Source: Mariniphaga sp.
GTDB lineage: Bacteria > Bacteroidota > Bacteroidia > Bacteroidales > Prolixibacteraceae
Direction of reading: 5' to 3'
DNA: 64,000 nucleotides
Assembly (NCBI GenBank): GCA_025355585.1
Contig: JANXZJ010000079.1
Span: 1 to 64,000, forward strand
Part shown: piece after piece, positions 10,302 through 27,030 of the stretch
Layout: every line of letters begins with the position of its first letter
Position numbering within the stretch: position 1 is the stretch's first letter
Notes under the pieces: model-generated
Told to the model about the DNA's origin: nothing
The model's input: only the letters and a program-made list of their open reading frames with translations
The model's database searches: none
Program-made: the position numbers and the translations under genes

Positions 10302-10623
10302 ATAATTTGTTAAATAGTTTTAAGGCGATTCTTTTGGAGTCGCCTTTTTTTGTGCCTTTCGGAATGAGTAAAAAAAATGTGGATGAGGATTAACAGACAA
10401 ACAGCAATAAATATATCGATAACTAATTAAATCACTGATTTTTGCGCCATTTTGATTGTGTACAATCCGGATCGTATCAATCAAATTATATTTAATCAGG
10501 AATTAAATCGCATGGTTCTCTAAAACTAAACGCTTAAATAATCGTTATTTAATCTAAATAAGAATGCATAGGTAATTTAATTGAACGGTTTAATACTTAA
10601 AATTTAATTCTCACAATTTGATA
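10302..10623. other. Intergenic leader of the leucine/mevalonate block
   Basis: This 322-base gap holds the ribH terminator and then the presumed promoter region of the following 15-kb block. I see no exact TAnnTTTG element. Two weak dyads might be operators: GATTG-N4-CAATC at 10454-10467, with another CAATC at 10478, and the AT-rich TTAAATAA-TCG-TTATTTAA at 10534-10552. Neither matches a regulator I can name, and AT-rich palindromes arise easily by chance here. Confidence 0.3.
10322..10351 (+). terminator. Intrinsic terminator after ribH
   Basis: A 10-bp stem AAGGCGATTC/GAGTCGCCTT (one G-U pair) closes a TTTTG loop and runs into a run of T residues, 20 bases after the ribH stop. Confidence 0.85.
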
Positions 10624-13044
10624 ATGCAACTGGAAAAAGTCGGACTACCAACATCGTTGAGTATTGATAAAGAGATCGTTATTAATGATTACTATACTGT
10701 TTTCTTAAGTCGGCAGTTAAGTATCCTGGGACGGAAAGAGGTACATGCAGGCCGTGCTCATTTCGGTATATTTGGTGATGGAAAAGAACTTGCTCAGGTT
10801 GCATATGCAAAAAATTTCACAAAAGGTGATTGGAGATCTGGTTATTACAGAGATCAGACTTTTATGCTGGCGGCAGGATTGCTCAATCCGGAAGAATTTT
10901 TCTCCCAGATTTATGGTGACACTGATATAGAGAACAATCCTTCAACAGGTGGGCGCAATTTTAATAATCATCACGCTACCCGAAATTATGGCATTGAGAA
11001 TGGACTCGACAATTTATTGGAACAAAAAAACTCTTCTTCCGATGTCTCATCAACTGCCGGGCAAATGCCTCGCCTTTTAGGTTTGGCTCATGCATCTAAA
11101 CTTGTAAAAGAGAATCCTGAATTACAACAATATACCAAAAATACAATTACTGGGAATGAAGTGGCTTTTGGAACCATTGGTGAATCGAGTACTTCTGAAG
11201 GTATGTTTTTCGAGACTATTAACGCAGCTTGTGTGCTTCAGGTTCCTCTTGCAATTGCCATTTGGGACGATGGATACGGAATCAGCGTTCCTGTTGAACT
11301 TCAGACTGCAAAGGGAAGTATATCTAAAGCACTCAAAGGATTCGAAGCCAACGAAAAAGATGCAGGATGCAAAATCTTCGTTTGTCCGGGATACGATTAT
11401 CAGGCTTTGGTACAGACTTTTGAAAAGGGGATAAAGATTTGCAGAGAGAATCAGACACCTGTAATATTTCATATTAACGAATTGACTCAGCCATTGGGGC
11501 ATTCAACTTCAGGTTCTCATGAAAGATACAAAAGCGACGATCGATTAGATTGGGAAAAGGAACATGATCCGATTTTGAAATTCAGGGAATGGATACTCAA
11601 TGAAAATCTGGCAGACAAAAAAACTATTAAAACGATTGAAAATAAAGCCATTGAACGTGCCAGGCTTGCCAAAGAACTTGCATGGCAATCATTTATTCAA
11701 AGTTTTAACACGGAAAAAAATGAGCTCAGGAATTTAATTGACTCAATAAGATCTGAAAACTCGTCAGGTTCTGAAATAATAGTTGATGGTCTGGATGAAG
11801 TCCTTAATGCTCCTTTCCCAACCAGAAAAAAATTGCTGGCATTTGCTAAAAAACAGCTTAGGTCACTCCATGGGAATAAAGCTTTTCAAAAGAGCAGACA
11901 TAACCTGCTGGAGTGGATTTCAAAAATCGAGAATAAGGGAAAGAATCAGTATAACACCCACATATTTAGTGATATAAACAATTTTGATTCAAGTTATAAT
12001 ATAAGACCAGTTTATGCTGCTGAATCCCAAACTGTTCCTGCGCACGAAATTCTTAATCTCAATTTCGATCTGCTTTTTGAAAAATATCCGCTCCTGTTAA
12101 CTTTCGGCGAAGATACAGGGCGACTTGGTGATGTCAACCAGGGAATGAAAGGAATGCAGGAAAAATATGGTGTCCACCGGGTTTTTGATACGGGAATAAG
12201 GGAAACAACCATTATTGGCCAGGGGATCGGATTGGCGCTTCGGGGATTTAGACCGATAGCAGAAATTCAGTACCTCGATTATCTGATCTATGCCTTGCCA
12301 ACCATTTCGGATGATCTTGCCACACTCTATTATCGCACAAGGGGTCAGCAGATTGCCCCGCTAATCATACGAACCAGAGGTCATCAATTACAGGGAATGT
12401 GGCATTCAGGGTCACCAATGAGCATGTTGCTGGGCTCGCTTGGCGGAATCAACATTTGTGTACCACGAAACATGACTCAAGCTGCAGGATTTTATAATAC
12501 TCTTCTGAAAGGGCACAATCCAGCTTTGGTAATAGAGCCATTGAAAGGTTATTATATCCGTGAAATGCTACCCGAAAATCTTGGAGAATTCACCGTTCCT
12601 TTGGGTATTCCCGAAGTGTTGGAAGAAGGGACAGACATTACGATTGTCACCTACGGCTGGAATGTTACAATAGCTCACAGTGCTGTTAATAAATTAAAGG
12701 CGCTCAATATTTCAGCTGAATTAATTGATGTACAAACACTTGTACCTTTTGATACACAACATATTATACGAAGATCTATCCAAAAAACCAATAAAATCCT
12801 CTTTGTCGACGAGGATGTTCCTGGCGGAGGTACTGCCTATATGATGCAAAAAGTTTTGGTTGAACAAAATGCGTTTAATTACCTCGATACTCCTCCTAAA
12901 ACATTGTCTGCCAAAGAACATAGGGGAGCATATGGCACTGATGGTGAGTATTTTTCGAAACCAAATACAGAAACGATTATCGAAGCAGTATATGAAATAA
13001 TGCACATTGTTAACCCAGCAAAATTCCCTGGACTGTACGAATAA
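10624..13044 (+). CDS. Fused alpha/beta E1 of a branched-chain-type 2-oxoacid dehydrogenase
   Basis: This is a thiamine-diphosphate dehydrogenase of about 806 residues in which the E1 alpha domain (about 1-330) and E1 beta domain (about 460-806) lie in one chain, as in many Bacteroidota. It decarboxylates 2-oxo acids and passes the acyl group to a lipoyl E2. Its position ahead of leucine genes suggests 2-oxoisocaproate and related acids. The cofactor region (about 180-225) reads GESSTSEG ... WDDGYGISVP, so the usual GDG and ENN are changed to GES and DD. The beta half carries FGEDTGRLGDVNQGM and EIQYLDYLIYA. No E2 or E3 is adjacent. The ATG at 10624 is preferred over the TTG at 10618. The next gene starts three bases after the stop. 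Confidence 0.85.
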   Translation: MQLEKVGLPTSLSIDKEIVINDYYTVFLSRQLSILGRKEVHAGRAHFGIFGDGKELAQVAYAKNFTKGDWRSGYYRDQTFMLAAGLLNPEEFFSQIYGDTDIENNPSTGGRNFNNHHATRNYGIENGLDNLLEQKNSSSDVSSTAGQMPRLLGLAHASKLVKENPELQQYTKNTITGNEVAFGTIGESSTSEGMFFETINAACVLQVPLAIAIWDDGYGISVPVELQTAKGSISKALKGFEANEKDAGCKIFVCPGYDYQALVQTFEKGIKICRENQTPVIFHINELTQPLGHSTSGSHERYKSDDRLDWEKEHDPILKFREWILNENLADKKTIKTIENKAIERARLAKELAWQSFIQSFNTEKNELRNLIDSIRSENSSGSEIIVDGLDEVLNAPFPTRKKLLAFAKKQLRSLHGNKAFQKSRHNLLEWISKIENKGKNQYNTHIFSDINNFDSSYNIRPVYAAESQTVPAHEILNLNFDLLFEKYPLLLTFGEDTGRLGDVNQGMKGMQEKYGVHRVFDTGIRETTIIGQGIGLALRGFRPIAEIQYLDYLIYALPTISDDLATLYYRTRGQQIAPLIIRTRGHQLQGMWHSGSPMSMLLGSLGGINICVPRNMTQAAGFYNTLLKGHNPALVIEPLKGYYIREMLPENLGEFTVPLGIPEVLEEGTDITIVTYGWNVTIAHSAVNKLKALNISAELIDVQTLVPFDTQHIIRRSIQKTNKILFVDEDVPGGGTAYMMQKVLVEQNAFNYLDTPPKTLSAKEHRGAYGTDGEYFSKPNTETIIEAVYEIMHIVNPAKFPGLYE

Positions 13045-13047
13045 GAT

Positions 13048-14619
13048 ATGAACCAAATCAAATCGAAAATAGATGCCTCCGATACTCAGTTTAAAGATAG
13101 CGTTGAGTCTTATTCGCAGGTGATAAGTACTTATCGTTCAAGGATGAAAAGTATTATCAATCGTGATGAGGATTCTGCCGTTGTCAGACATCGCTTACGC
13201 GGCAAACTGGATGCCAGAAGCAGAATTGAGTTGCTGATCGACGAGAAAACGCCATTTCTTGAACTTTCTACCCTTGCAGCATATGGACAATATGAGAATC
13301 AGTTTCCATCAGCTGGAATAATAACAGGGATTGGAAAGATTCACGGTAAATCATGCATGATTATTGCCAATGATGCGACCGTCAAAGGGGGAACCTACGT
13401 AAAAGAAACAGTAAAAAAACATTTAAGAGGCCAGGAGATTGCACTGAAAAATCACCTGCCTTGCGTTTATTTAGTCGATTCAGGCGGAATCTTTTTACCC
13501 GAACAATCACAGATATTTCCTGATCGCGACGGTTTCGGACGTATTTTTTACAATCAGGCCCAAATGTCAGCAGAAGGTATTCCCCAGGTGTCAATCGTTA
13601 TGGGATCTTGCACTGCCGGTGGAGCCTATGTTCCTGCAATGAGTGATGAAACTATTATTGTTAAAAATCAGGGGACGATTTTCATTGGCGGACCACCATT
13701 GGTAAAGGCAGCAACTGGCGAAGAGGTTACAGCCGAAGAATTGGGTGGTGCCTTCGTTCATGCAGGAATCTCCGGGGTTGCAGACCATCTTGCAGAAAAT
13801 GAAATAGATGCAATAAGAATATGCCGAAACATTTTTGAATTGATACCCCAAAATGAATTGCAGCATTTTGAAATGGTTTCGGTTGAAGAGCCGGCTTACG
13901 ATCCCATCGAATTGTATGGCCTCGCTCCCGCCGATCTCCGGAAACCCGTTGATATTTATGAGATTATTGCCAGAATAGTGGATGGAAGCAAGTTTGAACC
14001 GTTTAAGCGGAATTATGGTGCAACAATCGTAACTGGATATTCAAGAGTATTAGGATTTCCAGTTGGGATAATCGCAAACAACGGATTTCTTACCTCGGAG
14101 GCTTCATTGAAAGGTGCTCATTTTATCGAAATATGTAATTTCAGGAAAATACCCATCCTCTTTTTGCAAAATATTTCGGGTTTTATTGTAGGTAAAAAAT
14201 ATGAACACGAAGGGATTGCCAGAAATGGAGCTAAACTTATTCATGCAGTTGCAACTGCAGTCGTTCCTAAAATAACTGTCATTTTCGGTGGATCGTTTGG
14301 AGCTGGAAATTATGCGATGGCAGGAAGAGCTTATAATCCCGATTTCCTGTTTGTGTGGCCAAGTTCAAAGATTGGTGTGATGGGTGGACAACAAGCACTG
14401 CACGTTTTGAATTCGATCAAAGGGAATGAGCTTGAAGACAGTGACTCCAATCTTATCAATCAATTTGAAGAAGAGAGTACGGCCTATTACAGTACATCAA
14501 GGCTTTGGGATGATGGAATTATTAATCCTGCCGATACAAGAAATATTGTCGGCTTAGCCATTTCAATTACTTCGAACAGAAAATTCGCGGAACCAAAAAA
14601 TGGGATAATCAGAATGTAA
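13048..14619 (+). CDS. Acyl-CoA carboxylase carboxyltransferase subunit (methylcrotonyl-CoA type, beta)
   Basis: This 523-residue carboxyltransferase of the crotonase fold transfers CO2 from biotin to an acyl-CoA. It has the two-lobed arrangement with oxyanion-forming segments MGSCTAGGAYVPAMSDE in the N-lobe and FGGSFGAGNYAMAGRAY in the C-lobe, plus the acyl-CoA carboxylase signature VYLVDSGGIFLPEQ. The family also includes propionyl- and geranyl-CoA carboxylases. Methylcrotonyl-CoA is chosen because the cluster also encodes a methylglutaconyl-CoA-type hydratase and a biotin carboxylase subunit of MCC length. It begins three bases after the E1 gene and is clearly in its operon. Confidence 0.88.
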   Translation: MNQIKSKIDASDTQFKDSVESYSQVISTYRSRMKSIINRDEDSAVVRHRLRGKLDARSRIELLIDEKTPFLELSTLAAYGQYENQFPSAGIITGIGKIHGKSCMIIANDATVKGGTYVKETVKKHLRGQEIALKNHLPCVYLVDSGGIFLPEQSQIFPDRDGFGRIFYNQAQMSAEGIPQVSIVMGSCTAGGAYVPAMSDETIIVKNQGTIFIGGPPLVKAATGEEVTAEELGGAFVHAGISGVADHLAENEIDAIRICRNIFELIPQNELQHFEMVSVEEPAYDPIELYGLAPADLRKPVDIYEIIARIVDGSKFEPFKRNYGATIVTGYSRVLGFPVGIIANNGFLTSEASLKGAHFIEICNFRKIPILFLQNISGFIVGKKYEHEGIARNGAKLIHAVATAVVPKITVIFGGSFGAGNYAMAGRAYNPDFLFVWPSSKIGVMGGQQALHVLNSIKGNELEDSDSNLINQFEEESTAYYSTSRLWDDGIINPADTRNIVGLAISITSNRKFAEPKNGIIRM

Positions 14620-14640
14620 ATCATTAATAATTAAATTAAT

Positions 14641-15000
14641 ATGAAATATAAAGAATTAGTATCTGCAGCTTATCAATCAATTGACAGTGCAGATTCTGCA
14701 AAATTTGCCTCATTTATCACACCAGATGGGATTTTCAGGTTCGCAAATAATCCTGCAGTAAAAGGCAACAAAGCAATTGCAGATTTTGTGGAAAATTTCT
14801 TCAAAAGTCTGAATGGGATCAGCCACTCAAATCTTGAGTCCTGGAGTGTGGATAATGTCATTTTCGTTAATGGAAATGTAAAATACGTTCGCCACAACAA
14901 TACATCACTCGAAGTGCCCTTTTCATGTACCTGGAAAATGAAAGATGGCCTAATTGATGAATACCTGATTTTTACAGATAATTCCGAATTGTATAAGTAG
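14641..15000 (+). CDS. SnoaL/NTF2-like small protein
   Basis: This 119-residue protein has the look of the NTF2-like/SnoaL fold: an N-terminal helix (YKELVSAAYQSIDSADSAKFASFI), then TPDGIFRFANNPAVKGNKAIADFVENFF, and a sheet of alternating residues ending in CTWKMKDGLIDEYLIFTDNSELY. The fold is used by isomerases, hydratases and non-catalytic binding proteins, so no reaction can be named. It sits between the carboxyltransferase and hydratase genes with short gaps on both sides, so a role in acyl-CoA handling is possible. That is only inference. Confidence 0.7.
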   Translation: MKYKELVSAAYQSIDSADSAKFASFITPDGIFRFANNPAVKGNKAIADFVENFFKSLNGISHSNLESWSVDNVIFVNGNVKYVRHNNTSLEVPFSCTWKMKDGLIDEYLIFTDNSELYK

Positions 15001-15045
15001 CATATTTCAGAAATCAATTACAAGTTATCCAAATACTAATTTATT

Positions 15046-15828
15046 GTGAAAGAGTTCAGTACAATAGTAACAGAATTTAATGGGCAGGTCGCAACCCTTT
15101 GGCTTGCACGGCCAGATGTCCATAATGCCTTGGATGACATTATGATTCGGGAATTATGTGCTTTTTTCAAAAAAATTGAGGAAGATAGCCAAATCAGACT
15201 TGTGGTAATTCGGGGACAAGGGAAATCGTTTTGTTCAGGAGCGGATCTAAACTGGATGAAAAGGGCCTTTGGCCTTATCGCGGAAGATAATTTAAGGGAG
15301 TGCAAAGAGCTGTCTGAACTGTTTAAAGTGATTTACAACAGCAGTAAAGTCGTTATTTCTGTTGTTCATGGAAACGTTTTTGGTGGTGGAAACGGTATCG
15401 TCGCGGTCAGCGATCTAGCGTACTGTATTGACAGCGCAAAGTTTTCGTTAAGCGAAGCACGAATTGGGATGGCCGCTGCTTCTATCGCCCCTTATATGCT
15501 CAAAAAAGTACATGCTGCCGATCTGAAAGCGCTAATCTTTTCTGCAATGAATTTTAATGGCAAGGATGCAGTAAAATATGGTTTGCTCAATAAATCTTTC
15601 CCATCACAGGAGTTCATGGAATTGTATGTGAATTCACATATTTCAGAGATACTTGCGAATGGCAAATTTGCATTGATCGAATCGAAAAGGTTAATTAACG
15701 GATTGACTGATCAATCAATGACAGAAGAAATGCTGCAAATTCCCGAATTATTGGCCCGGATCAGGGTATCGCCTGAGGCGCAGGAAGGATTTTCCGCCTT
15801 TCTTGAAAAAAGAAAGCCAAGATGGTAG
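15046..15828 (+). CDS. Enoyl-CoA hydratase, methylglutaconyl-CoA hydratase type
   Basis: This crotonase-family enzyme of 260 residues probably hydrates 3-methylglutaconyl-CoA to HMG-CoA, the last step before the mevalonate half of the cluster. Visible features are VVIRGQGKSFCSGADLNWMKR, where GADLNWMK is typical of LiuC/AUH proteins, the oxyanion-hole segment GNVFGGGNGIVAVSDLAY, and the catalytic-loop region FSLSEARIGMAAASIAPYML. The start is a GTG. The position between the two carboxylase subunit genes strengthens the assignment. A general short-chain enoyl-CoA hydratase is the main alternative. Confidence 0.83.
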   Translation: MKEFSTIVTEFNGQVATLWLARPDVHNALDDIMIRELCAFFKKIEEDSQIRLVVIRGQGKSFCSGADLNWMKRAFGLIAEDNLRECKELSELFKVIYNSSKVVISVVHGNVFGGGNGIVAVSDLAYCIDSAKFSLSEARIGMAAASIAPYMLKKVHAADLKALIFSAMNFNGKDAVKYGLLNKSFPSQEFMELYVNSHISEILANGKFALIESKRLINGLTDQSMTEEMLQIPELLARIRVSPEAQEGFSAFLEKRKPRW

Positions 15829-15883
15829 TTACAGACCCGAGATTCAACAATAGAATCACATAACTTTATTAATCAATAATTTA

Positions 15884-17887
15884 ATGGCATTTTTGGATAA
15901 AATACTAATAGCGAACAGAGGTGAAATTGCCTTAAGAATAATCCGTTCGGCAAAGAAATTGTCGATCGGGACAGTCGTTATTTACACCGAGTCCGAAAAA
16001 GAAGCTGATTACGTCAGACTTGCCGACGAGGCCGTGAATCTTGGAAACGGTGATCTGAATTCAACCTTTTTGAACATAGATAAAATCATTCAAATTGCCA
16101 TTTCAACGGGTTCTAAAGCCATCCATCCTGGATATGGATTTCTCTCGGAGAATCCAATGTTTGCAAAAGCATGCGAAGACCAACAAATTATTTTTATTGG
16201 ACCCAATTCCGAAGTGTTAAGGATAATGGGTAACAAACAAACGGCTAAGTCATTGGCAACCAGACTTGGAATTCCTGTCATTTTTAGCCGGGAAATTGAT
16301 CTCAAATCACCTGATCCTGACGAAGATCAATTGCACTTCCCCGCAATGATTAAGGCTTCATATGGTGGTGGTGGAAAAGGAATTGAAATAGTTCATAATC
16401 GGGATGATCTCAAAAGACAGGTTGAAAAATCAGCACGTACGGCTTTGAATTATTTTGGAAACGGCGAGCTGTTTATCGAACAATACATACAAAATGCACG
16501 TCATGTTGAAGTTCAGCTAATCGGTGATAATTACAATAATATCATACATTTATACGAACGGGAGTGCTCCATTCAGCGAAATCATCAAAAGATCATAGAA
16601 GAGGCTCCGGCCATTTTTTTATCGCTGGAATTGCGTTCTAAAATTCTGGATTCGGCCATAAAAATCGGGAAAGCCGTTAATTACTCAGGAGCAGGAACCG
16701 TTGAATTCCTGATTGATGAAGCAGAAAACTATTACTTTTTGGAAATGAATCCAAGGATTCAGGTTGAACATGTTGTAACAGAAGAAGTCACAGGCATTGA
16801 TATTGTCAGTGAGCAAATACGAATCGCTTCAGGACTTTCACTCTCAATTTCTCAGGACGAGGTGATTATAAAAGGACACGCCATCGAATTAAGAATTTAT
16901 GCAGAAGATCCTTCGCAAAATTTCACTCCCTCTTCTTTTCCAGTAATTTCTGTCAATTTCCCAAAGCAATCAAATCTGCGAATTGAGACCGATATTACCT
17001 GCAATCAACAAATAATGACCCAATTCGATCCTTTGTTATTAAAGGTGATCGCTGCAGGAAAGGATCGTGAAAGTGCCATAAAGCTGCTACGGACCGAAAT
17101 CAAAAATCTGAATATCATTGGTCCTGAAACAAATACCAGGTACCTTGAAGCAATTCTGTCTCATCCTGAATACAAGCAAAATAATATTACAGTTGAATTT
17201 TGTAAAGACAACCACAAATTACTAATTGACAATTATATAAAACAACTAAATCCGGATCATCTGCATTTTTTGATTGCGCTTTCCATCGAAAAATTTTACT
17301 TCACTCATGTTCGTCCTGAAACTTCTGATCCATGGAAATACCTGGGATATTGGCGGGTAACAGATCAAATAATCAGGCTAGGCATAAATGGGAAATTGGT
17401 TAGTGTAGAGATCTGTTTAAGAGACACAGCTAAGGCTGCATACATACTGAATGGAACAAAGCACTGGTTCAAGATAGTTAATGAGTCAAAAAGCCAAATA
17501 GGAATAATGATCGGTGCAAATACAAAGCAATTATCATTTTCAATTGAAAATCAAAATAGTATGTTGATTAGTTGTGAAAATCAACAGCACAAAATATCAT
17601 TTCCGGGACTATTGAGAAGTTATCCTGAAACCATTGCCAGTTCGGATAATACATCGGATATTGAAACAGGGGAGATCAAATCCCCGTTGCATGGCAGAAT
17701 ATTGGAAATAAACGTCAAAAAAAATCAATTTATAAAAAAAGGTGACCTCATGATGATAATTGAAGCGATGAAGTCTGAAAACCGAATTCTTTCGCCTAAA
17801 GATGCCAAAGTGAAAAAAATTGCTGTTAATGTGGGCGCTCAGGTTACTGACCAGATGCCCCTCATCTATCTGGAGGATAAACTATGA
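15884..17887 (+). CDS. Acyl-CoA carboxylase biotin carboxylase/BCCP subunit (methylcrotonyl-CoA type, alpha)
   Basis: This 667-residue subunit carries biotin and carboxylates it with ATP and bicarbonate. The biotin carboxylase domain fills residues 1-450, with ILIANRGEIALRIIRSAK at the start, the ATP-grasp glycine loop ASYGGGGKGI, and EMNPRIQVEHVVTEEVTGID. A linker domain follows. The biotinyl domain ends the chain with IIEAMKSENR, in which K630 should be biotinylated 37 residues from the C-terminus. It pairs with the carboxyltransferase encoded two genes upstream. Its stop overlaps the start of the acyl-CoA dehydrogenase gene (ATGA), so the two are translationally coupled. Confidence 0.9.
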   Translation: MAFLDKILIANRGEIALRIIRSAKKLSIGTVVIYTESEKEADYVRLADEAVNLGNGDLNSTFLNIDKIIQIAISTGSKAIHPGYGFLSENPMFAKACEDQQIIFIGPNSEVLRIMGNKQTAKSLATRLGIPVIFSREIDLKSPDPDEDQLHFPAMIKASYGGGGKGIEIVHNRDDLKRQVEKSARTALNYFGNGELFIEQYIQNARHVEVQLIGDNYNNIIHLYERECSIQRNHQKIIEEAPAIFLSLELRSKILDSAIKIGKAVNYSGAGTVEFLIDEAENYYFLEMNPRIQVEHVVTEEVTGIDIVSEQIRIASGLSLSISQDEVIIKGHAIELRIYAEDPSQNFTPSSFPVISVNFPKQSNLRIETDITCNQQIMTQFDPLLLKVIAAGKDRESAIKLLRTEIKNLNIIGPETNTRYLEAILSHPEYKQNNITVEFCKDNHKLLIDNYIKQLNPDHLHFLIALSIEKFYFTHVRPETSDPWKYLGYWRVTDQIIRLGINGKLVSVEICLRDTAKAAYILNGTKHWFKIVNESKSQIGIMIGANTKQLSFSIENQNSMLISCENQQHKISFPGLLRSYPETIASSDNTSDIETGEIKSPLHGRILEINVKKNQFIKKGDLMMIIEAMKSENRILSPKDAKVKKIAVNVGAQVTDQMPLIYLEDKL

Positions 17888-19026
17888 ATGAACTATTGGA
17901 AGACCGATATATTGAATATAGAAGAAAAATACGGGCATTTTCTGAAACTGTAATCAAACCTTTGGCAATTGCTCAGGATGAAAAGGAGGAATTTCCGCTT
18001 GAATTGGCTCAAAAAATGGGAAAGGCGGGATTGTTTGGAATCACGCTTTCTGAAAAATATGGTGGGCAGGGTTTGGACTACCTCTCATATATTATTGCCG
18101 TTGAAGAGATTGCACGCATCGACAGCTCTCCTGCAGCGACTGTTTCCGCTCACAATTCATTAGGAATTTTCCCAATTTACACCTACGGAACCGAAGAGCA
18201 ACGCATTAATTACCTTCCGGGACTTTGCACGGGTGAGAACCTTTGGGCTTTCGGTCTTACTGAAAAAAATGCCGGTTCGGATGCTAAAGGAGTCGAAACA
18301 GAAGCAAAACTGACAGAAGGTCAATGGTTGATCAATGGATCTAAGATGTTCATAACCAACAGTTCTTCTTCTATTGCTTCGGGAATTACACTTCAGGCAA
18401 TTACAGGTGGGACAAATGGTAAAAAGGAGTTATCGGCCATTCTGGTCGATCGTAGCACACCTGGCTACTACGCAACACCCATCAAAGGAAAACTGATGTG
18501 GCGCGCTGTCGACAATGGCGAGCTCCGGTTCGAAAACTGTGTTGTTCCCAAAGAAAATCTGTTGGGCAATCGTGGTGACGGCATGAAAATCATGCTTTCA
18601 ACCCTTGACGGGGGAAGACTCTCAATTGCGGCTATTGGGCTTGGACTTGCACAGGGTGCTTTTGAAATGGCCGTTGAATACTCGAAAAAGCGGAAACAAT
18701 TTGGAAAAACATTATCAGAATTTCAGGCAATATCGTTTAAATTAGCCGAGATGTCGGTCAAAATTGAGCTTGCACGCAATACACTATACCACGCCTGCAG
18801 ATTAAAAGATGCCGGTTTGCCCTTTGCCAAACAAGCAGCCATCTCAAAACTTTATTGCTCCGAAATTGCACGTGAAGTGGCCGATGAGTCCCTTCAGGTT
18901 CATGGAGCATATGGATTGCTCCGGGAAAATCATATCGAACGGTTTTATCGCGATCAGCGATTGCTACAGATCGGCGAAGGGACTTCCGAGATACTTAAAA
19001 TGGTCATTTCGCGCCATATTTTATAG
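17884..19026 (+). CDS. Acyl-CoA dehydrogenase (isovaleryl-CoA role suggested by context)
   Basis: This 380-residue FAD enzyme forms the alpha,beta double bond of an acyl-CoA. The usual blocks are present: FGLTEKNAGSDAKG, MFITNSSSS, RKQFGKTLSEFQAISFKLAEM, VHGAYGLLRENHIERFYRDQRLLQIGEGTSEI. By position it should act on isovaleryl-CoA. However, the catalytic glutamate is in the short/medium-chain position (E365 in IGEGTSE). The site used by true isovaleryl-CoA dehydrogenases holds glycine (G244 in DGGRL, where they have DLERL). A butyryl-, isobutyryl- or 2-methylbutyryl-CoA enzyme is therefore equally possible from sequence. It overlaps the carboxylase gene by four bases. Confidence 0.87.
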   Translation: MNELLEDRYIEYRRKIRAFSETVIKPLAIAQDEKEEFPLELAQKMGKAGLFGITLSEKYGGQGLDYLSYIIAVEEIARIDSSPAATVSAHNSLGIFPIYTYGTEEQRINYLPGLCTGENLWAFGLTEKNAGSDAKGVETEAKLTEGQWLINGSKMFITNSSSSIASGITLQAITGGTNGKKELSAILVDRSTPGYYATPIKGKLMWRAVDNGELRFENCVVPKENLLGNRGDGMKIMLSTLDGGRLSIAAIGLGLAQGAFEMAVEYSKKRKQFGKTLSEFQAISFKLAEMSVKIELARNTLYHACRLKDAGLPFAKQAAISKLYCSEIAREVADESLQVHGAYGLLRENHIERFYRDQRLLQIGEGTSEILKMVISRHIL

Positions 19027-19044
19027 CATAATTTCTTAATTACC

Positions 19045-20100
19045 ATGGAAATATCTTATCAATCAGAAAAAAAGGATGATCAAGCGATTCCCGATATTTC
19101 AGAGCGAAAATCTGAACATATCAATCTTGCTCTTCAATCGCAAACTGTGATAAATGAATCGGATAACCGGTTTTATTATGAACCTATGATTTCAGGGTTT
19201 CCGGTAAATAAAACTATCCAAATCCCATTTGCCGGCAAAAAATTAAACGTTCCGATGTGGGTTTCAAGCATGACAGGTGGTCATCAGCTATCAGGCACCA
19301 TCAACCGCAATCTCGCGATGGCATGCAAAGAATTTGGAATGGGTATGGGATTAGGGTCGTGCAGAATGTTGCTTGACGAGGATACGTATTTCAGCGATTT
19401 CGATGTCCGTTCGATTATAGGTGACGATTTTCCACTATTTGCAAATCTGGGAATTGCCCAAATTGAGGAAATGGTCGAGAAAAATGAAACGGATAAAATC
19501 AGGCGTTTGATCGACCGTCTTAAAGCTGACGGACTGATTATCCATGTAAATCCTCTCCAGGAATGGGTTCAACCAGAGGGAAATACTATTCACAATCCTC
19601 CGGTTGATACCATCGAAAAGCTTTTAGAAAAAATTGATTTTCATTTAATTGTGAAGGAAGTCGGCCAGGGATTTGGTCCTCAGAGCCTCCGGCGATTGCT
19701 CCAGTTACCGCTTGCGGCAATTGAATTTGGTGCTTTTGGTGGGACCAATTTTTCGAAAGTTGAAATACAACGCAGTTCAATTCTCAGAAAAGAGTTGTAT
19801 CAGCCTTTTGTAAATATTGGTGTTACGGCCGAAGAGATGGTCGATTTGACAAATGAAATGATCCTTGACGGCGAAAAATTTGCCTGCAATCAACTTATTA
19901 TCTCAGGAGGAATCAAAAACTATCTGGATGGTTTTTACCTCACTGAAAAGTCAATTCTTCCCGCAATTTATGCGCAAGCATCAGTCTTTCTGAAATATAG
20001 CCAGGGTGATTATTCAGATTTACAACAATTTGTTACTTCCCAGATCGAGGGTTACCAGATGGCAAAAAGCTACTTGACTTTGAAAGAATCACGGCGTTAA
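19045..20100 (+). CDS. fni: Type 2 isopentenyl-diphosphate delta-isomerase
   Basis: This FMN- and NADPH-dependent TIM-barrel isomerase of 351 residues interconverts IPP and DMAPP. The start of the family core reads PMWVSSMTGGHQLSGTINRNLA, followed by GMGMGLGSCRMLL, LFANLGIAQ, HVNPLQEWVQPEGN (substrate loop) and IVKEVGQGFGPQSLR. The C-terminal phosphate-binding part IISGGIKNYLDG closes the FMN site. It begins 18 bases after the acyl-CoA dehydrogenase stop, which places the join between leucine breakdown and isoprenoid synthesis inside a single transcription direction with almost no gap. Confidence 0.92.
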   Translation: MEISYQSEKKDDQAIPDISERKSEHINLALQSQTVINESDNRFYYEPMISGFPVNKTIQIPFAGKKLNVPMWVSSMTGGHQLSGTINRNLAMACKEFGMGMGLGSCRMLLDEDTYFSDFDVRSIIGDDFPLFANLGIAQIEEMVEKNETDKIRRLIDRLKADGLIIHVNPLQEWVQPEGNTIHNPPVDTIEKLLEKIDFHLIVKEVGQGFGPQSLRRLLQLPLAAIEFGAFGGTNFSKVEIQRSSILRKELYQPFVNIGVTAEEMVDLTNEMILDGEKFACNQLIISGGIKNYLDGFYLTEKSILPAIYAQASVFLKYSQGDYSDLQQFVTSQIEGYQMAKSYLTLKESRR

Positions 20101-20201
20101 GGCATTTGCTGGAATAGTCATCAGTTAAGCTGGAATAAATGTAATCGCATGATTTTCTGTCGGCAAATAGTTTTAATCCTAAAATATTAAATATCATACA
20201 A

Positions 20202-21518
20202 ATGGGATTCATTTCCGGGTTTTCTAAATTTAACCGATCTCAAAGGATTGACTTTATCGTTCAAAATACCGCTCTGAATGGCTCAGAGGCTCATGATTTT
20301 GATGATTACGATTCACCGGACGGAAATCAACAACGGATATACAGCGAAATGATTGAGAATTACGTTGGAAATTTTCCGGTTCCTATGGGTGTAGTCACGA
20401 ATATGCTTATCAATGGTGAAACATATATTGTACCGTTTGTGACTGAAGAGAGTTCCGTAATAGCTGCGGCATCGAAAGCAGCCAAATTCTGGGCCAAACG
20501 AGGCGGATTTAAGGCAACTGTACTTGGAGTGATCAAAAAGGGGCAGGTTCATTTTACATGGAATGGCAAACAGCAATTAATTAAGGAGTTATTCCCGGTA
20601 ATCCGAGAAAAATTATTCGAAGCAACACAGGCACTTACCGAAAAAATGAGACAAAGAGGCGGTGGTATTACCGCTATTCATCTCATCGATAAAACGCAAG
20701 AACTACCTGATTATTACCAGGTAGATGTTTCGTTCGAAACGGCCGATGCAATGGGGGCCAATTTCATTAACTCTTGTCTTGAAAAAATATCCTTTGCATT
20801 GCAGGATATCAGTGAATTAAATTCTGATGAATGCCGCGTTGAAATAATTATGGCAATCCTCTCCAATTATACGCCGGAGTGCTTTGTCCGATGTTGGGTG
20901 GAATGTCCTGTCGAAAAGCTTGAAGGGTGGAACAAAGCGTTATCATACAAATCTTTCGCAACGAAGTTTAAACAATCAGTTGATATTGCCAACATCGATG
21001 TTTCGAGGGCTGCGACGCATAATAAAGGGATTTTCAATGGAATAGATGCAGTGCTTTTAGCCACGGGCAACGACTGGAGGGCGACTTCAGCATCCGCCCA
21101 TGCATATGCCTCAAGAAACGGAAAATACACCGGGCTAACGACCCTTACGCTGACTGAAAAATCATTTATATATGAGTTGGAACTTCCAATGGCACTTGGA
21201 ACCGTTGGTGGTATCACCGGAATTCATCCCACTGTGAAAAATTCGCTTGCCATTCTGAAATATCCCGATGCAAGAAAACTGATGATGATTGCAGCTGCTT
21301 CGGGGCTCGCAAGCAATTTTGGGGCAATCGCATCGCTGATAACAACCGGAATTCAGGCAGGACACATGAAGATGCACCTGTCAAATATTCTTAACCAATT
21401 AAATATTAATTTTTTGGAATCTGATATTGTCCGAAATTATTTTTCAGATAAGGCAATTTCATACAATGCAGTGGAAGAATTTATTCAGAAAATGAGGAAG
21501 AAAAATGAATTTACCTGA
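20202..21518 (+). CDS. mvaA: Hydroxymethylglutaryl-CoA reductase, class II
   Basis: This 438-residue class II (Pseudomonas mevalonii/Staphylococcus type) HMG-CoA reductase reduces HMG-CoA to mevalonate. It begins with ENYVGNFPVPMGVVTN and carries the expected catalytic residues: the glutamate in VTEESSVIAAASKAAKFW (about E82), K275 in HNKGIFNGIDA, D291 in GNDWRA (16 residues later, as in P. mevalonii), and a histidine in AGHMKMHLSNI (about H388). Class II enzymes serve both synthesis and breakdown of mevalonate. The downstream kinases and decarboxylase argue for synthesis. The gene overlaps the following kinase gene by 14 bases. Confidence 0.94.
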   Translation: MGFISGFSKFNRSQRIDFIVQNTALNGSEAHDFDDYDSPDGNQQRIYSEMIENYVGNFPVPMGVVTNMLINGETYIVPFVTEESSVIAAASKAAKFWAKRGGFKATVLGVIKKGQVHFTWNGKQQLIKELFPVIREKLFEATQALTEKMRQRGGGITAIHLIDKTQELPDYYQVDVSFETADAMGANFINSCLEKISFALQDISELNSDECRVEIIMAILSNYTPECFVRCWVECPVEKLEGWNKALSYKSFATKFKQSVDIANIDVSRAATHNKGIFNGIDAVLLATGNDWRATSASAHAYASRNGKYTGLTTLTLTEKSFIYELELPMALGTVGGITGIHPTVKNSLAILKYPDARKLMMIAAASGLASNFGAIASLITTGIQAGHMKMHLSNILNQLNINFLESDIVRNYFSDKAISYNAVEEFIQKMRKKNEFT

Positions 21519-22449
21519 GATCAAATCATTTGAATCGCGCGCAAAATTAATGATATCGGGCGAGTACCTGGTTCTTAAAGGTGCGCTCTCGCTCTCAGTA
21601 CCTCTGCGATTTGGACAGAAAATGACAGTTAAAGAAAATGATGGAACTCATTCAGTAAAATGGAAATCAATGATTAACAATGATTTTTGGTTTAACACGA
21701 CGCTACTCCTCCCCGACTTTCGGATTTCGGAAACAAATCATCCGGAACTGTCAGAAACGATCCTGAGAATATTGGTTGCTGCAAAGTCTTTGAATTCCAA
21801 GTTTTTGGAATCGAAATATGAATACAAGGTGGATTCGGTAATAGATTTCAATCCTCTTTGGGGACTCGGTTCGAGCAGTTCTTTGATTTCAAATATCGCC
21901 TATTGGGCTGAATGTGACCCATTCAAACTTAATTATCAGATATTTAATGGATCAGGTTATGATATTGCCTGTGCAAGATCATCCACTCCTGTTATTTATG
22001 AACTTAAAGCTGGTCAACCCTTTTACCGCAAAGCTCATTTTTATCCTTTGTTTCATAAACAGCTCTATTTCGTTTACCAGAATCATAAGCAAAACACGAA
22101 AGCGAGTATCCAAAAATTGGACATGTCCAATATTCATTCAAAGGATATTAGTAACATTTCCAATCTGACAATTGAGATGGAAAACACAACCGATCTTAAA
22201 GCTTTTCAGTTCCAAATTGATCAACATGAAGAATTAATCGGCCATTTGATTCAGCAAAAACCAATCAAAGCCCATCTTTTCAATGATTTCACCGGATCGG
22301 TGAAGTCGCTTGGAGCCTGGGGCGGCGATTTTATTCTGGCAGCCTCATCAGAACCTGAGGATTATATATTTAAGTATTTCAAGGATAAGAATTTAAATAC
22401 GATATTTCGTTACGATGAAATCGTATTTTCAGAAAAAATAAAAAGATAA
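21505..22449 (+). CDS. GYDIA-family GHMP kinase (candidate phosphomevalonate kinase)
   Basis: This 314-residue kinase belongs to the GHMP superfamily, in the subgroup named after its GYDIA motif (residues 151-155). The first family motif is AKLMISGEYLVLKGALSLSVP and the phosphate loop is PLWGLGSSSSL (117 on). The C-terminal GAWGGDFILA fits the third GHMP motif. No bench function is known to me for this subgroup. It sits between HMG-CoA reductase and diphosphomevalonate decarboxylase, and a separate mevalonate kinase follows, so phosphomevalonate kinase is the missing step it could fill. The overlap with mvaA and the four-base gap to mvaD imply tight co-expression. Confidence 0.82.
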   Translation: MNLPEIKSFESRAKLMISGEYLVLKGALSLSVPLRFGQKMTVKENDGTHSVKWKSMINNDFWFNTTLLLPDFRISETNHPELSETILRILVAAKSLNSKFLESKYEYKVDSVIDFNPLWGLGSSSSLISNIAYWAECDPFKLNYQIFNGSGYDIACARSSTPVIYELKAGQPFYRKAHFYPLFHKQLYFVYQNHKQNTKASIQKLDMSNIHSKDISNISNLTIEMENTTDLKAFQFQIDQHEELIGHLIQQKPIKAHLFNDFTGSVKSLGAWGGDFILAASSEPEDYIFKYFKDKNLNTIFRYDEIVFSEKIKR

Positions 22450-22453
22450 ACCA

Positions 22454-23521
22454 ATGAGCGAAGACGTTATAAATATCAGATGGAGAGCCCCTTCGAATAT
22501 CGCACTTATTAAATACTGGGGTAAAAGGGCGCATCAGCTTCCGGATAATGGTTCACTAAGCATTACGCTGGATAAGACATCATCAACCACCTCCCTGTCA
22601 TTCAAAAAGAAACAAAGAGCCGAGAAAAATATCAGTTTTGAATACTATTTTCATGGGAATCGTCATCTTCAATTCGAAAAAAAAACGGAGACGGTACTTA
22701 ATTATTTGATCCCTAAAATGCCATTTCTAACTGATTATGAACTTGTTTTTCAAAGTGAGAATAACTTTCCCCATTCTGTTGGCATCGCCTCGTCAGCCTC
22801 ATCGATGAGTGCATTGGCGCTTTGCCTGGTAAGCATGGAGGAAATTGTCAAACGGAAGAAGCTTAGTAAAGACAATTTTTTTCAAAGAGCTTCCTTTATT
22901 GCCAGAATGGGCTCAGGTAGCGCTTCCCGGTCGGTTTTCGGAGGTATTGTGACCTGGGGTAATATTCCATTCATTGACCCTTCATCAGATGAGTATGCCA
23001 CCCCATTACCTTTACCAAACGAAAGCAGGCTTCATCTGCTGATGGATATTATTCTGATTGTTAGTTCCAAAGAAAAAGCCGTGTCGAGTACAACTGGTCA
23101 TGCACTCATGAATGATCATCCCTTCCGGCAAGGGAGAATATCGCAGGCGAACAGCAACATACGCAACCTGATTGATGCAATTCGCAAAGATAATTATAAA
23201 CTTATAGGCACAATTGCTGAAAATGAAGCTCTTTCGCTCCACGCTTTGTTGATGACCTCCGCACCCGACGGATTATTACTAAAGCCCAATACATTGAATA
23301 TTATTGACGCGGTGAAACAATTCAGAAAGAAAACCGGGCTTGATTTATTCTTTACGATAGATGCAGGACCAAACGTTCACCTGATCTATTTTGAAGATCA
23401 GCGGGAACTTGTGCTTCCTTTTGTTCAGAATACGCTCGCTCAATTTTGCGAAGATGGCCGATGGATCGATGACAGGATAGGAAGCGGACCACAGCTCCTT
23501 ACCTCTGAAACTAAATTTTAG
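22454..23521 (+). CDS. mvaD: Diphosphomevalonate decarboxylase
   Basis: This 355-residue GHMP-fold enzyme makes IPP from diphosphomevalonate with ATP. Recognisable pieces are RAPSNIALIKYWGKR (active-site lysine/tyrosine segment), LPDNGSLSITLD, the nucleotide loop SVGIASSASSMSALAL, ARMGSGSASRSVFGGIVTWG, and the catalytic-aspartate segment FTIDAGPNVHL. The length is slightly above the bacterial norm and the protein looks complete. It lies between two other GHMP kinase genes, one base before mevalonate kinase. Confidence 0.94.
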   Translation: MSEDVINIRWRAPSNIALIKYWGKRAHQLPDNGSLSITLDKTSSTTSLSFKKKQRAEKNISFEYYFHGNRHLQFEKKTETVLNYLIPKMPFLTDYELVFQSENNFPHSVGIASSASSMSALALCLVSMEEIVKRKKLSKDNFFQRASFIARMGSGSASRSVFGGIVTWGNIPFIDPSSDEYATPLPLPNESRLHLLMDIILIVSSKEKAVSSTTGHALMNDHPFRQGRISQANSNIRNLIDAIRKDNYKLIGTIAENEALSLHALLMTSAPDGLLLKPNTLNIIDAVKQFRKKTGLDLFFTIDAGPNVHLIYFEDQRELVLPFVQNTLAQFCEDGRWIDDRIGSGPQLLTSETKF

Positions 23522-23522
23522 T

Positions 23523-24443
23523 ATGAGCTATCCTGCCAAAATACTTTTGTTCGGAGAATATGGCATTATACTGAATTCAATGGCATTAGCAATTCCTCAC
23601 CCACGATTTTCGGGGCAATTCCGATGGTCAGACTCATCAGCTGAAAACCCTTTGCTTACAGCAATTGAATCAAACAAGGAGTTAAAAAACCTGTTTGCCT
23701 TTTTGAAAAACAAAGCGGAAAAATTCCAGTCGCTTAATCTTAATCTATTTGAAGATGAAGTAAATAAAGGATTGTACTTCGATTCTTCGGTACCCATCGG
23801 TTCCGGTCTGGGAAGTTCCGGAGCTCTTACAGCAGCAACTTATGAACGCTACGTAAAACAAGTCTCACAAAATGATTATCAATTCCTTAAAGCAGAACTT
23901 GGAGCAATCGAGTCCTTTTTTCACGGTAAAAGTTCGGGTTTCGATCCGCTGATATCCTACCTGAAAAGACCAGTATTGATTGATAACCATTCATCTGTTA
24001 TTACCGGTTTCGACCTGACCCATTTTTTTAATAACTACACACTTTTTCTGGTCAATACAAATTCGAATGGGGATACTGGGGCGTTGGTCAGTTATTTTTT
24101 GGAAAATTACAAAAACCATGATTTTAAAGATAGTATTGATAATGAATATATTCCGCTTGTCAATGAGGTTATCGGATCCGTTATTAATAATGACTTTGAC
24201 TCTTTAGACGAATTAATTGCGCGTTATTCTGAATTTCAACTGGCACACTTCGGGGCAATGGTACCAATTAAGATGAGAAAATATTTTGAACATGGAATCG
24301 AAAGTGGTGACTTTTATCTAAAACTTTGTGGGTCAGGAGGTGGAGGATATATGCTAGGTCTGGCAACCAACCGTTTAAGAGCAGAGTTTTATTTTAATTT
24401 AAACCATCTTGAATACATGGTTGTTAATCATTCAGAACTGTAA
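23523..24443 (+). CDS. mvk: Mevalonate kinase
   Basis: This 306-residue GHMP kinase phosphorylates mevalonate. The N-terminal motif is PAKILLFGEYGIILNSMALAIP, the phosphate loop is SSVPIGSGLGSSGALTAATY, the catalytic-aspartate region is FHGKSSGFDPLISYL, and motif 3 is LKLCGSGGGGYMLGLA. Together these fit mevalonate kinase better than galactokinase or homoserine kinase. It is the third consecutive GHMP-fold gene and starts one base after mvaD. The order reductase, GYDIA kinase, decarboxylase, mevalonate kinase is compact and complete apart from HMG-CoA synthase. Confidence 0.87.
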   Translation: MSYPAKILLFGEYGIILNSMALAIPHPRFSGQFRWSDSSAENPLLTAIESNKELKNLFAFLKNKAEKFQSLNLNLFEDEVNKGLYFDSSVPIGSGLGSSGALTAATYERYVKQVSQNDYQFLKAELGAIESFFHGKSSGFDPLISYLKRPVLIDNHSSVITGFDLTHFFNNYTLFLVNTNSNGDTGALVSYFLENYKNHDFKDSIDNEYIPLVNEVIGSVINNDFDSLDELIARYSEFQLAHFGAMVPIKMRKYFEHGIESGDFYLKLCGSGGGGYMLGLATNRLRAEFYFNLNHLEYMVVNHSEL

Positions 24444-24489
24444 AATATCATTTTCAGGTTCTTCATTTAACTTTAATAAATTAACTTTC

Positions 24490-25425
24490 ATGCAAAATCC
24501 CAATAAAATAGTAATCTGGCTCAATCAAATAAGAGCCAACTTCCTGGTCCTTGCGGCACTTTTAGTAGCAATCGGCATTGCATTAGCCTTTAAATATTTA
24601 CCTGATGGCAGCACCATCAGCTGGTTAAATATCTCACTGGTTTTGATTGGTTCAGTACTTGCCCATACCTCGGTGAACCTTTTCAACGAATACTCTGACC
24701 ATTTGACAGGGATTGATAAAAACACGCAGCGAACTCCTTTCAGTGGCGGTAGCGGAATGATCAAATCAGGGTTCACGAAACCGTCATCGGTACTTGCTGC
24801 TGCCATTACGACACTGCTGATTTCCGGTGCGATCGGAATCTACTTCGGCATTACTGCGCACTGGACTGTGTTTCTCATTATGATGGTCGGCGCATTTTCA
24901 ATAGTGGCTTATACACCATTGCTGACGAAATTTATGCTTGGTGAGCTTTTTTCAGGATTAACACTTGGTACGCTTGTCGTTTTAGGGACGTTTATCGCGC
25001 TAACTGCCAGACCGGGACAGTCTTTCGTATCGTTGCTACCATTTGAGGTGATCATGATCTCCATTCCGCCCGGCATATTAACTTCACTGCTTCTGTTGCT
25101 AAATCAATTTCCCGATGCAGAAGCCGATAAAAAAGGAGGGCGAAAACACCTGGTTATCAAGCTAGGAGCCCAAAAGGCAGCTTATGTATATACGGCTGGT
25201 GTCGTCGCAACTTTTGTAATCATCCTATTGCTTCCGCTGACGGGGGTTTCTTCCTTCTGGCTTTATTTGGGTCTGCTTCCTTTGCCTTTTGTGATCAAAG
25301 CAACTGCGACGGCACTTCAGTTTAATAACAATATGGAGAAGCTCGTTCCTGCACTTGGAGCGAATATTGTAACAGTTTTACTAACAGATGCCTTGCTTGC
25401 AGTTTCAATATTTCTGACTTTATAA
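24490..25425 (+). CDS. UbiA-family prenyltransferase (MenA-like)
   Basis: This integral membrane prenyltransferase of 312 residues has about eight or nine hydrophobic helices. The two Mg2+/diphosphate-binding motifs are NLFNEYSDHLTGID (first Asp-rich motif) and LLNQFPDAEADKKGGRKHL (second). It resembles 1,4-dihydroxy-2-naphthoate prenyltransferase, the menaquinone enzyme, but other aromatic acceptors are possible and no other men gene is near. It would consume the polyprenyl diphosphate derived from the upstream mevalonate genes. The ATG at 24490 opens with MQNPNKIVIWLNQIRANFL. A start 27 codons earlier would overlap mvk and adds a sequence without family character. Confidence 0.82.
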   Translation: MQNPNKIVIWLNQIRANFLVLAALLVAIGIALAFKYLPDGSTISWLNISLVLIGSVLAHTSVNLFNEYSDHLTGIDKNTQRTPFSGGSGMIKSGFTKPSSVLAAAITTLLISGAIGIYFGITAHWTVFLIMMVGAFSIVAYTPLLTKFMLGELFSGLTLGTLVVLGTFIALTARPGQSFVSLLPFEVIMISIPPGILTSLLLLLNQFPDAEADKKGGRKHLVIKLGAQKAAYVYTAGVVATFVIILLLPLTGVSSFWLYLGLLPLPFVIKATATALQFNNNMEKLVPALGANIVTVLLTDALLAVSIFLTL

Positions 25426-26357: not shown

Positions 26358-26367
26358 TTAATTGAAA

Positions 26368-27030
26368 ATGAAGACGAAGAAAATAACATACAGCAAAATA
26401 CTGGAAGTCAGAAATCTGACAGAATCAACTTACGTACTACGACTTGAAAAAAGCGATTTCGAATTTAAAGCAGGACAATACCTTGTATTAAATGTTCCCG
26501 GCGAGAATAAAGCCCGCGAATATTCGATTTACAGTCCTGAAAATGCACCATATATTGATCTGTTAATCAAAGAGGTCGATTCAGGCGAAATATCAAAGGA
26601 ATTGAAATACCTGAAAATAGGAACAAAAGTGGAAATTACCGGTCCGTTTGGGTATTTCCTTTTAAGAGATAATGAGCAGATTAAACAAAGTCACTTTACA
26701 TTCGTAGCTACCGGAACCGGAATAGCTCCTTTCCACAGTATTATCTTATCGAATCCGGACCTTAATTACGAAGTGATTCATGGCGTAAGGCATGGTTATG
26801 AGGCCTACGATTCCTCCGATTACCCCGAGGACCGTTATATACTTTGCACTTCGCGCGAACATGGGGTGTATCATTTCGGACGAGTTACCCATTATTTGAA
26901 GGAAAAAGGGATCAATAAGGATTCAATCTACTATATCTGCGGCAATTCGGGAATGGTGAACGATGTGACCGAAATCCTCGAAAAGAATGGCATTATCCCT
27001 GAAAATATTCGCACGGAGGTGTTCTTTTAA
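26368..27030 (+). CDS. Ferredoxin-NADP reductase-like FAD oxidoreductase
   Basis: This 221-residue flavoprotein of the ferredoxin-NADP reductase superfamily has an FAD-binding barrel with the R-x-Y-S motif (AREYSIYSP), LIKEVDSGEIS, and the NAD(P)-binding half with FVATGTGIAPFHSII and YYICGNSGMVNDV. It ends in TEVFF, as reductases of this type do. Nothing for an iron-sulfur domain is fused, so it must hand electrons to a separate partner. The TTG at 26362 is in frame, but I prefer the ATG at 26368. The Cys-rich gene follows immediately, with zero bases between stop and start. Confidence 0.82.
   Translation: MKTKKITYSKILEVRNLTESTYVLRLEKSDFEFKAGQYLVLNVPGENKAREYSIYSPENAPYIDLLIKEVDSGEISKELKYLKIGTKVEITGPFGYFLLRDNEQIKQSHFTFVATGTGIAPFHSIILSNPDLNYEVIHGVRHGYEAYDSSDYPEDRYILCTSREHGVYHFGRVTHYLKEKGINKDSIYYICGNSGMVNDVTEILEKNGIIPENIRTEVFF

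Follow-up and report, generated by a model that had tools for sequence, protein, structure and literature searches.

A gene block of Mariniphaga sp. joining leucine breakdown to the mevalonate pathway: a proposed route to isoprenoids without HMG-CoA synthase

Textbook mevalonate synthesis begins with acetoacetyl-coenzyme A (acetoacetyl-CoA) and 3-hydroxy-3-methylglutaryl-CoA (HMG-CoA) synthase, and the classical liu cluster of leucine breakdown ends in HMG-CoA lyase. Reported here is a block of 12 genes (10,618–25,425, all on the + strand) in a stretch of 64,000 nucleotides from Mariniphaga sp. (Prolixibacteraceae; GenBank assembly GCA_025355585.1, contig JANXZJ010000079.1, positions 1 to 64,000; hereafter the window), in which a half leading from leucine to HMG-CoA is followed by a half leading from HMG-CoA to isopentenyl diphosphate (IPP). 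Passage from leucine through HMG-CoA to isoprenoids is known elsewhere; what appears new is a bacterial gene order that most likely encodes a synthase-free, leucine-fed mevalonate route.

In trypanosomatids leucine is converted to HMG-CoA by the same steps as proposed for the block and then to mevalonate, and deletion of isovaleryl-CoA dehydrogenase in Trypanosoma brucei abolished the incorporation of leucine into sterols (PMC5993337, in its accessible part); this is the shortcut that an earlier reading of the window without database searches (the sequence-only reading) had named. T. brucei differs in also possessing a gene for HMG-CoA synthase, together with an acetyl-CoA bridge, and its route is eukaryotic and mitochondrial (same part of PMC5993337). 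For Halobacterium, conversion of leucine to mevalonate and isoprenoid lipid with participation of isovaleryl-CoA dehydrogenase was described (Yamauchi 2010, as cited in the available text of PMC6155224 and PMC6832408). The haloarchaeal route differs in being archaeal, and Haloferax volcanii matches the synthase family PF01154; we know of no comparable haloarchaeal gene cluster. In Myxococcus xanthus, as in the block, leucine catabolism and mevalonate synthesis meet at HMG-CoA in a bacterium; unlike the block, M. xanthus has HMG-CoA synthase, whose involvement in the alternative isovaleryl-CoA route is given in the title of a cited reference, and runs the junction in the opposite direction (PMC9548883, accessible text). 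The classical liu cluster shares with the block both subunits (α and β) of 3-methylcrotonyl-CoA carboxylase (MCC), a methylglutaconyl-CoA hydratase (putative in the block) and an acyl-CoA dehydrogenase (ACAD); the block differs in having HMG-CoA reductase (HMGR) in the place of the lyase. Its lower half corresponds to the Bacteroidota cluster of HMGR, GYDIA kinase, diphosphomevalonate decarboxylase (MDD) and mevalonate kinase (MVK), to which ACAD and MCC β are joined in few loci. Titles and abstract openings of the open-access literature disclosed no such bacterial cluster, none being known to the sequence-only reading either, and no synthase-free mevalonate synthesis in Bacteroidota; this is weak evidence of novelty, since the search covered open access only.

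With a probability of about 0.8, the block is one metabolic unit, a mevalonate pathway fed by leucine or isovalerate and lacking HMG-CoA synthase. The starting compound, either leucine in the form of 2-ketoisocaproate or isovalerate in that of its CoA ester, would be oxidised to 3-methylcrotonyl-CoA, this would be carboxylated by the biotin-dependent MCC, and the product would be hydrated to HMG-CoA, which would be reduced to mevalonate rather than cleaved by the lyase. Mevalonate would be phosphorylated twice and decarboxylated to IPP, and IPP isomerised to dimethylallyl diphosphate, HMG-CoA synthase playing no part. What was observed is which genes are present, how they are ordered, how far they are conserved and co-occur, and which were absent within the reach of the searches; from this we infer these substrates, the direction, the flux and the co-transcription of the block. 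In the window genome the block would run beside the methylerythritol phosphate (MEP) pathway; for certain relatives in which no MEP marker was detected, it would constitute the sole isoprenoid route.

Co-occurrence was determined in 61 genomes (the window's own and 60 relatives; 44 genera, 25 families). HMGR was found in 28 of them and MCC β in 30 (at least 678 bits; paralogues at most 283 bits). MCC β was present in 28/28 genomes with HMGR versus 2/33 without it (table 28/0/2/31; Fisher 2e-15). Tests of this kind count genomes and not independent gains, so the genus-level table is the fairer one: 15/0/1/28, i.e., 15/15 versus 1/29 (p 7e-11); outside the genus of the window, at a completeness of at least 90%, 13/0/1/24 was obtained (3e-9). 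The two HMGR-negative genomes with MCC β are G017 (78% complete) and G048.

The gene order MCC β–(SnoaL)–methylglutaconyl-CoA hydratase–MCC α–ACAD–type-2 isopentenyl-diphosphate isomerase (IDI2)–HMGR–GYDIA–MDD–MVK is kept. ACAD stands directly upstream of HMGR or IDI2–HMGR in 23 of the 28 HMGR-bearing genomes, preceded by MCC α, hydratase and MCC β where the contig allows. These linked genomes comprise 14 of the window's genus, G019, G023, G024, G026, G029, G031 and G034 of other genera of the same family, and G050 and G056 of other families; exceptions among them are G029, without IDI2 at this place, and G012, without a detected hydratase. Outside the genus, block proteins of linked genomes are approximately 29–73% identical to those of the window (G024, 48–81%); in 8 of the 9 out-of-genus linked genomes HMGR is 43–56% and the hydratase 29–49% identical, G024 being closer. 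Since this order is met again in further genera and families, the arrangement is not due to chance. As to the remaining five of the 28, the open reading frame (ORF) upstream of HMGR in G041 is not a block gene, and a lyase sits in the leucine cluster; the upstream neighbour in G032 is a secreted protein sorted by the type IX system; in G049 the contig starts 98 bases ahead of the HMGR frame; G046 and G052 have HMGRs of another kind than the block's.

HMG-CoA synthase was searched for with PF01154 (control: the haloarchaeon H. volcanii gave a match) and with an alignment of three Bacteroidota-type synthases. Neither search gave a synthase in the window genome, nor a recognisable one in any of the 28 HMGR-bearing genomes, 19 of which are at least 95% complete. 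The alignment matched 13 of the 61 genomes: G048 at 61 bits (archaeal-type synthase) and 12 others at 18–24 bits; 9 of these 12 were scanned and rejected, all being KAS III-like (G004, G007 and G010 stood outside that scan). Ten of the 28 HMGR-bearing genomes are among these weak matches, and the eight examined, the window's own included, are KAS III-like. KAS III-like proteins having been picked up, the alignment search reaches far homologues. HMG-CoA lyase gave a best match of 51 bits in the window genome (in a 519-residue frame) and among the 28 HMGR-bearing genomes only G041 exceeded 62 bits; in each of the 23 linked genomes lyase-like matches stayed at or below 62 bits. The curated lyase cut-off of 246 bits was reached in 0/61 genomes; read as lyases were two frames in G041 and one in G053 (174–194 bits, 293–345 residues). 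Within the block itself neither synthase nor lyase is encoded, as the sequence-only reading had noted, and the normal mvaS plus lyase elsewhere that it named as speaking against it was not found in the window genome (84.3% complete). In G048, where HMGR was not found, a cluster (L051:50-4483, L084) holds a hydratase, an archaeal-type HMG-CoA synthase (511 bits) and a 735-residue protein, with MCC β on another contig; this synthase may act in the lyase's stead. By inspection, the 735-residue protein resembles a carboxyltransferase–biotin carrier fusion.

The window assembly (4.09 Mb) contains the MEP gene dxr; ispG was not found in it. The finding of the one and not of the other suggests that the MEP pathway is probably present, with an assembly gap; ispG was found in 26 of the 28 HMGR-bearing genomes of the 61. 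In the window genome the block would be a second isoprenoid route, alongside MEP. The proposal of the sequence-only reading that leucine carbon passes straight into isoprenoids thus gained from the lack of a recognisable synthase or lyase, from the strict co-occurrence of MCC β with HMGR and from the kept order, but dxr shows that this would not be the only isoprenoid route; the genome check it had proposed returned no synthase and no lyase, but dxr was present, ispG was not found, and the completeness given above applies.

HMGR loci were also drawn from a genome collection; the best 80 of 588 were taken, so these loci lean towards window-like HMGRs. Genomes of these loci, 49 in number, were tested, G080 (L115) being a contig of the same organism as G026; 30 of the 80 loci were left out, among them L089–L092, which match contigs of genomes already searched. 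In the 49, MEP was judged by ispG alone and the lyase from stretches of at most 20 kb around MCC β (40 loci). Named carriers of the linked block include Tangfeifania diversioriginum DSM 27063 (Prolixibacteraceae) and one metagenome-assembled genome (MAG) each of Mariniphaga and Sunxiuqinia; in two Ancylomarina strains ACAD–IDI2–HMGR is retained, with no MCC within the locus. Among the best 80 of 588 loci, from Bacteroidota and Bdellovibrionota, GYDIA accompanies HMGR in 75 and all four genes HMGR–GYDIA–MDD–MVK are present in 38; block-type ACAD occurs in 14 and MCC β in 7, many of the loci being cut by contig ends. A strong synthase match was obtained in 3/49 genomes, the same three by both searches (a Saprospiraceae MAG, Flavobacterium hydrophilum and a Bacteroidetes MAG); weak matches in G078 (29 bits) and G095 (19 bits) were both KAS III/FabH and were rejected. 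PF01154 alone was discarded as proof of absence, having matched just 3 of these 49 HMGR-bearing genomes and 1/4 Flavobacteriaceae.

MCC β was found at 619 bits or more in 34 of the 49 genomes and at 424–464 bits in 12 (four Flavobacteriaceae, four Saprospiraceae, four others); two had fragments and one had none. ispG was found in 18/49, in 17 of them over the cut-off. Both ispG and synthase were missing from 28 of the 49, in which MCC β was of the block type (16), of the more distant type (9), fragmentary (2) or not found (1); the leucine route is the only HMG-CoA source found in these 28. Twelve of them are gut-type Bacteroidales/Bacteroidia MAGs (titles naming deer or horse, or carrying RUG, which was read as rumen; no host for L096), with block-type MCC β in 11 and a fragment in one; G061 and G062 have in addition MCC α and ACAD, G075 has the hydratase, and the set is complete in G072 and G093. 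At L096, of a MEP-less Bacteroidales and the sole such locus inspected, none of the 8 proteins encoded around HMGR was synthase-like. MCC genes (one β a fragment) occur in four Bdellovibrionota together with a distant lyase in their vicinity, neither ispG nor synthase having been found in these genomes; joint horizontal transfer of the HMGR cluster and MCC genes is possible there. A Bacteroidota-type HMGR cluster and MCC genes were seen at the Bdellovibrionota loci L227, L228, L229, L252 and L114, L128, L141, L156.

Several observations weigh against the block as one unit. With the window assembly at a completeness of 84.3%, gene absences in it carry little weight by themselves, and dxr (454 bits) is present in it. 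The HMGRs of G046 and G052 are unrelated to that of the block; with these two genomes dropped, 26/26 HMGR-bearing genomes hold MCC β. In G095 (1.9 Mb), which has HMGR, neither ispG nor synthase nor a clear MCC β was found, and 6 of the 12 gut-type genomes (G063, G064, G065, G067, G068, G069) show MCC β alone in the stretch examined. A lyase lies near the leucine cluster in six Bacteroidota genomes with HMGR (G041, G082, G085, G086, G089, G091), and a more distant one, of 118–151 bits at best, near the MCC genes in the Bdellovibrionota G079, G088, G096 and G101. These lyases imply that HMG-CoA is not set aside for the reductase in every HMGR-bearing genome. Linkage and loss of the lyase are traits of the window's lineage and certain others; MCC–HMGR co-occurrence extends further. 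The block's ACAD is nearer to butyryl/short-chain chains (approximately 265–296 bits) than to isovaleryl-CoA dehydrogenases (203–237 bits). Only 1/4 Flavobacteriaceae matched for synthase despite the mevalonate enzymes credited to the family (PMC4026382, accessible part). A distant synthase could accordingly escape both searches: either the flavobacterial synthase is too distant for them or these bacteria too are without one, and this limits all absence claims.

It is unlikely, though the least so of the alternatives, that the block consists of two ordinary adjacent modules, the mevalonate half being fed by a synthase that is unrecognised, non-homologous or very distant and the leucine half being plain catabolism. 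Such a pair would suit the lyases near the leucine cluster of some HMGR-bearing genomes and the 3/4 Flavobacteriaceae without a synthase match, whose route is reported complete bar phosphomevalonate kinase (PMC4026382, same part). It would also suit a divergent, 316-residue protein resembling KAS III that is encoded in the window genome (L179:1501-2451, G000 contig C144) and in at least five congeners (G001, G002, G003, G008, G012) and that scored below its own family cut-off (KAS III 220 bits, cut-off 249); its best synthase model gave only 77 bits (cut-off 244), and it is not taken for a synthase because it is also present in G001, which is 96% complete and without HMGR. The strict co-occurrence of MCC β and HMGR in the 61 genomes, the ceiling of 62 bits on lyase-like matches in the 23 linked ones, the ACAD adjoining IDI2/HMGR in distant relatives and the neighbours of HMGR at L096 argue against separate modules.

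A top of the block running in reverse, from HMG-CoA to isovaleryl-CoA for the priming of iso-branched fatty acids, has a precedent in M. xanthus, where the aib route leads from HMG-CoA to isovaleryl-CoA (PMC9548883, accessible text), but is very improbable here. HMG-CoA synthase, part of the M. xanthus route, was not found in any of the 28 genomes with HMGR in the set of 61. Present in the block are a biotin carboxylase, whose use of ATP favours carboxylation, and the complete lower mevalonate set. AibA/AibB, which we take to be the decarboxylase of the alternative Myxococcus route, were not the name given to any block gene in family searches, no genome search aimed at them having been made. 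Hardly any credence is likewise due to mevalonate disposal by a degradative class II reductase in reverse, as run by mevalonate-growing pseudomonads; the block's HMGR does have a degradative NAD reductase model as its top NCBIfam match (249 bits, against a cut-off of 260), but degradation requires HMG-CoA lyase, not found in the linked genomes, and has no need for mevalonate kinase, diphosphomevalonate decarboxylase or IPP isomerase.

The synthase-free unit fed by leucine or isovalerate may be extended, tentatively and at slightly less than even odds, to part of the Bacteroidota and some Bdellovibrionota, as a mevalonate pathway begun by leucine/isovalerate breakdown and the sole isoprenoid source in MEP-less gut Bacteroidales. 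Rumen bacteria depend on branched-chain volatile fatty acids; if the extension is true, the isoprenoid supply of MEP-less gut Bacteroidales would be tied to leucine/isovalerate, which is a possible reason for that dependence. Annotation rules would change, as a missing mvaS need not mean a broken pathway; menaquinone and the carrier lipids of the cell wall would be linked to the supply of amino acid or isovalerate, and engineering would gain a further means of feeding mevalonate.

The sequence-only reading's description of 12 co-directional genes with small gaps or overlaps was borne out: the intergenic distances, from E1 to the UbiA/MenA-like gene, are 3, 21, 45, 55, −4, 18, 101, −14, 4, 1 and 46 bases, the widest (101) lying before HMGR and all others between −14 and 55. 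Its assignment of a leucine half and a mevalonate half agrees with family searches of the block proteins, several scores being under curated cut-offs. The upstream border is marked by a terminator-like hairpin after ribH (10322–10346, +; 11-pair stem, then a T run); the remaining + strand matches of this kind (20703, 22305, 22343, 25230, 25241, 25242) are all inside genes, and on both strands 11 were found versus 14.9 expected from shuffles. A promoter scan of the window was uninformative (46 found, 47.3 expected).

Fused 2-oxoacid dehydrogenase E1 (α+β): 10618–13044 (+), TTG start with an in-frame ATG alternative at 10624; PRK09212, 158 bits (cut-off 321); domains E1_dh, Transket_pyr, Transketolase_C. 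It probably acts on branched-chain 2-oxoacids, and adjoins MCC β in 13 further loci, every one from the window's genus. MCC β (13048–14619, +) was named by comparison with structure chains and by context: it gave 557–601 bits with chains named MCC β, 433 with geranyl-CoA carboxylase and at most 274 with most propionyl-CoA carboxylases; the top three chains are named otherwise (9yx0, carboxyl transferase domain protein, 649; 4q0g, AccD1, 640; 9tps, propionyl-CoA carboxylase β, 632 bits), so the name needs family and context together. A propionyl-CoA-carboxylase-type β subunit, 36% identical to MCC β, is encoded on the same contig outside the window (G000:C192:71927-73366). The SnoaL/NTF2-like protein (14641–15000, +; SnoaL_2, 42 bits) has to our knowledge no part in leucine breakdown; its gene lies beside MCC β also in G006, G056 and G089.

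The crotonase of 3-methylglutaconyl-CoA hydratase type (15046–15828, +; family search and context) had as top NCBIfam match γ-carboxygeranoyl-CoA hydratase at 217 bits, under the cut-off of 426; superfamily and context fit. MCC α (15884–17887, +; family searches) comprises biotin carboxylase and biotin carrier, and the lysine in EAMKSE of its translation is presumably that of the biotin carrier motif. ACAD (17884–19026, +; family searches and neighbours) is proposed from context as isovaleryl-CoA dehydrogenase; its top chains, named only acyl-CoA dehydrogenase, gave 358 bits. E365, in an IGEGTSE stretch, is invariant across 14 homologues, and we take it to be the canonical base position, not that of isovaleryl-CoA dehydrogenase. 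The gene adjoins MCC α or HMGR in other families too. The acyl-CoA dehydrogenase step in the leucine route of the sequence-only reading therefore stands on context, the enzyme not being closest to known isovaleryl-CoA dehydrogenases.

IDI2 (19045–20100, +) is divergent: TIGR02151, 192 bits (cut-off 281); 1vcf, 115 bits. Class II HMGR (20202–21518, +) gave 294 bits with PF00368 and 433 bits with 7n7s; E83, K275, D291 and H388, presumably the expected catalytic Glu, Lys, Asp and His, are invariant in 14 aligned homologues. In G046 (L062:9884-12220) a single frame of 778 residues, unrelated to the block, combines HMGR with a phosphotransferase domain of APH type. The block carriers G014 (L060:11833-13104) and G002 (L061:8583-9875) have a second HMGR, approximately 24% identical to that of the block and set apart from it; the one in L060 adjoins an alpha/beta hydrolase.

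GYDIA, a GHMP kinase (21505–22449, +; NF040656, 332 bits, cut-off 225), is proposed as phosphomevalonate kinase. For Elizabethkingia anophelis and Flavobacterium branchiophilum all mevalonate enzymes except phosphomevalonate kinase were reported, which was said to be general in Flavobacteriaceae (PMC4026382, accessible part). The predicted structure of the GYDIA kinase is confident (pLDDT 91) and its nearest folds are mevalonate and phosphomevalonate kinases (TM 0.63–0.69), which makes it a candidate for the enzyme reported missing in flavobacteria. MDD: 22454–23521 (+), TIGR01240, 180 bits (cut-off 171). Probable MVK: 23523–24443 (+), top family TIGR00549, 86 bits (cut-off 163), and position in the block. 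UbiA prenyltransferase, MenA-like: 24490–25425 (+), likely ATG start at 24490 by inspection (ORF from 24409); PRK06080, 120 bits (cut-off 277), UbiA, 84 bits.

The block is followed after 77 bases by lipoyl synthase LipA (25503–26357, +; family search) and, 4 bases after LipA, by an FNR-like flavin reductase (26362–27030, +; family search); both adjoin the block in most loci of the window's genus, and also in G024 and G029.

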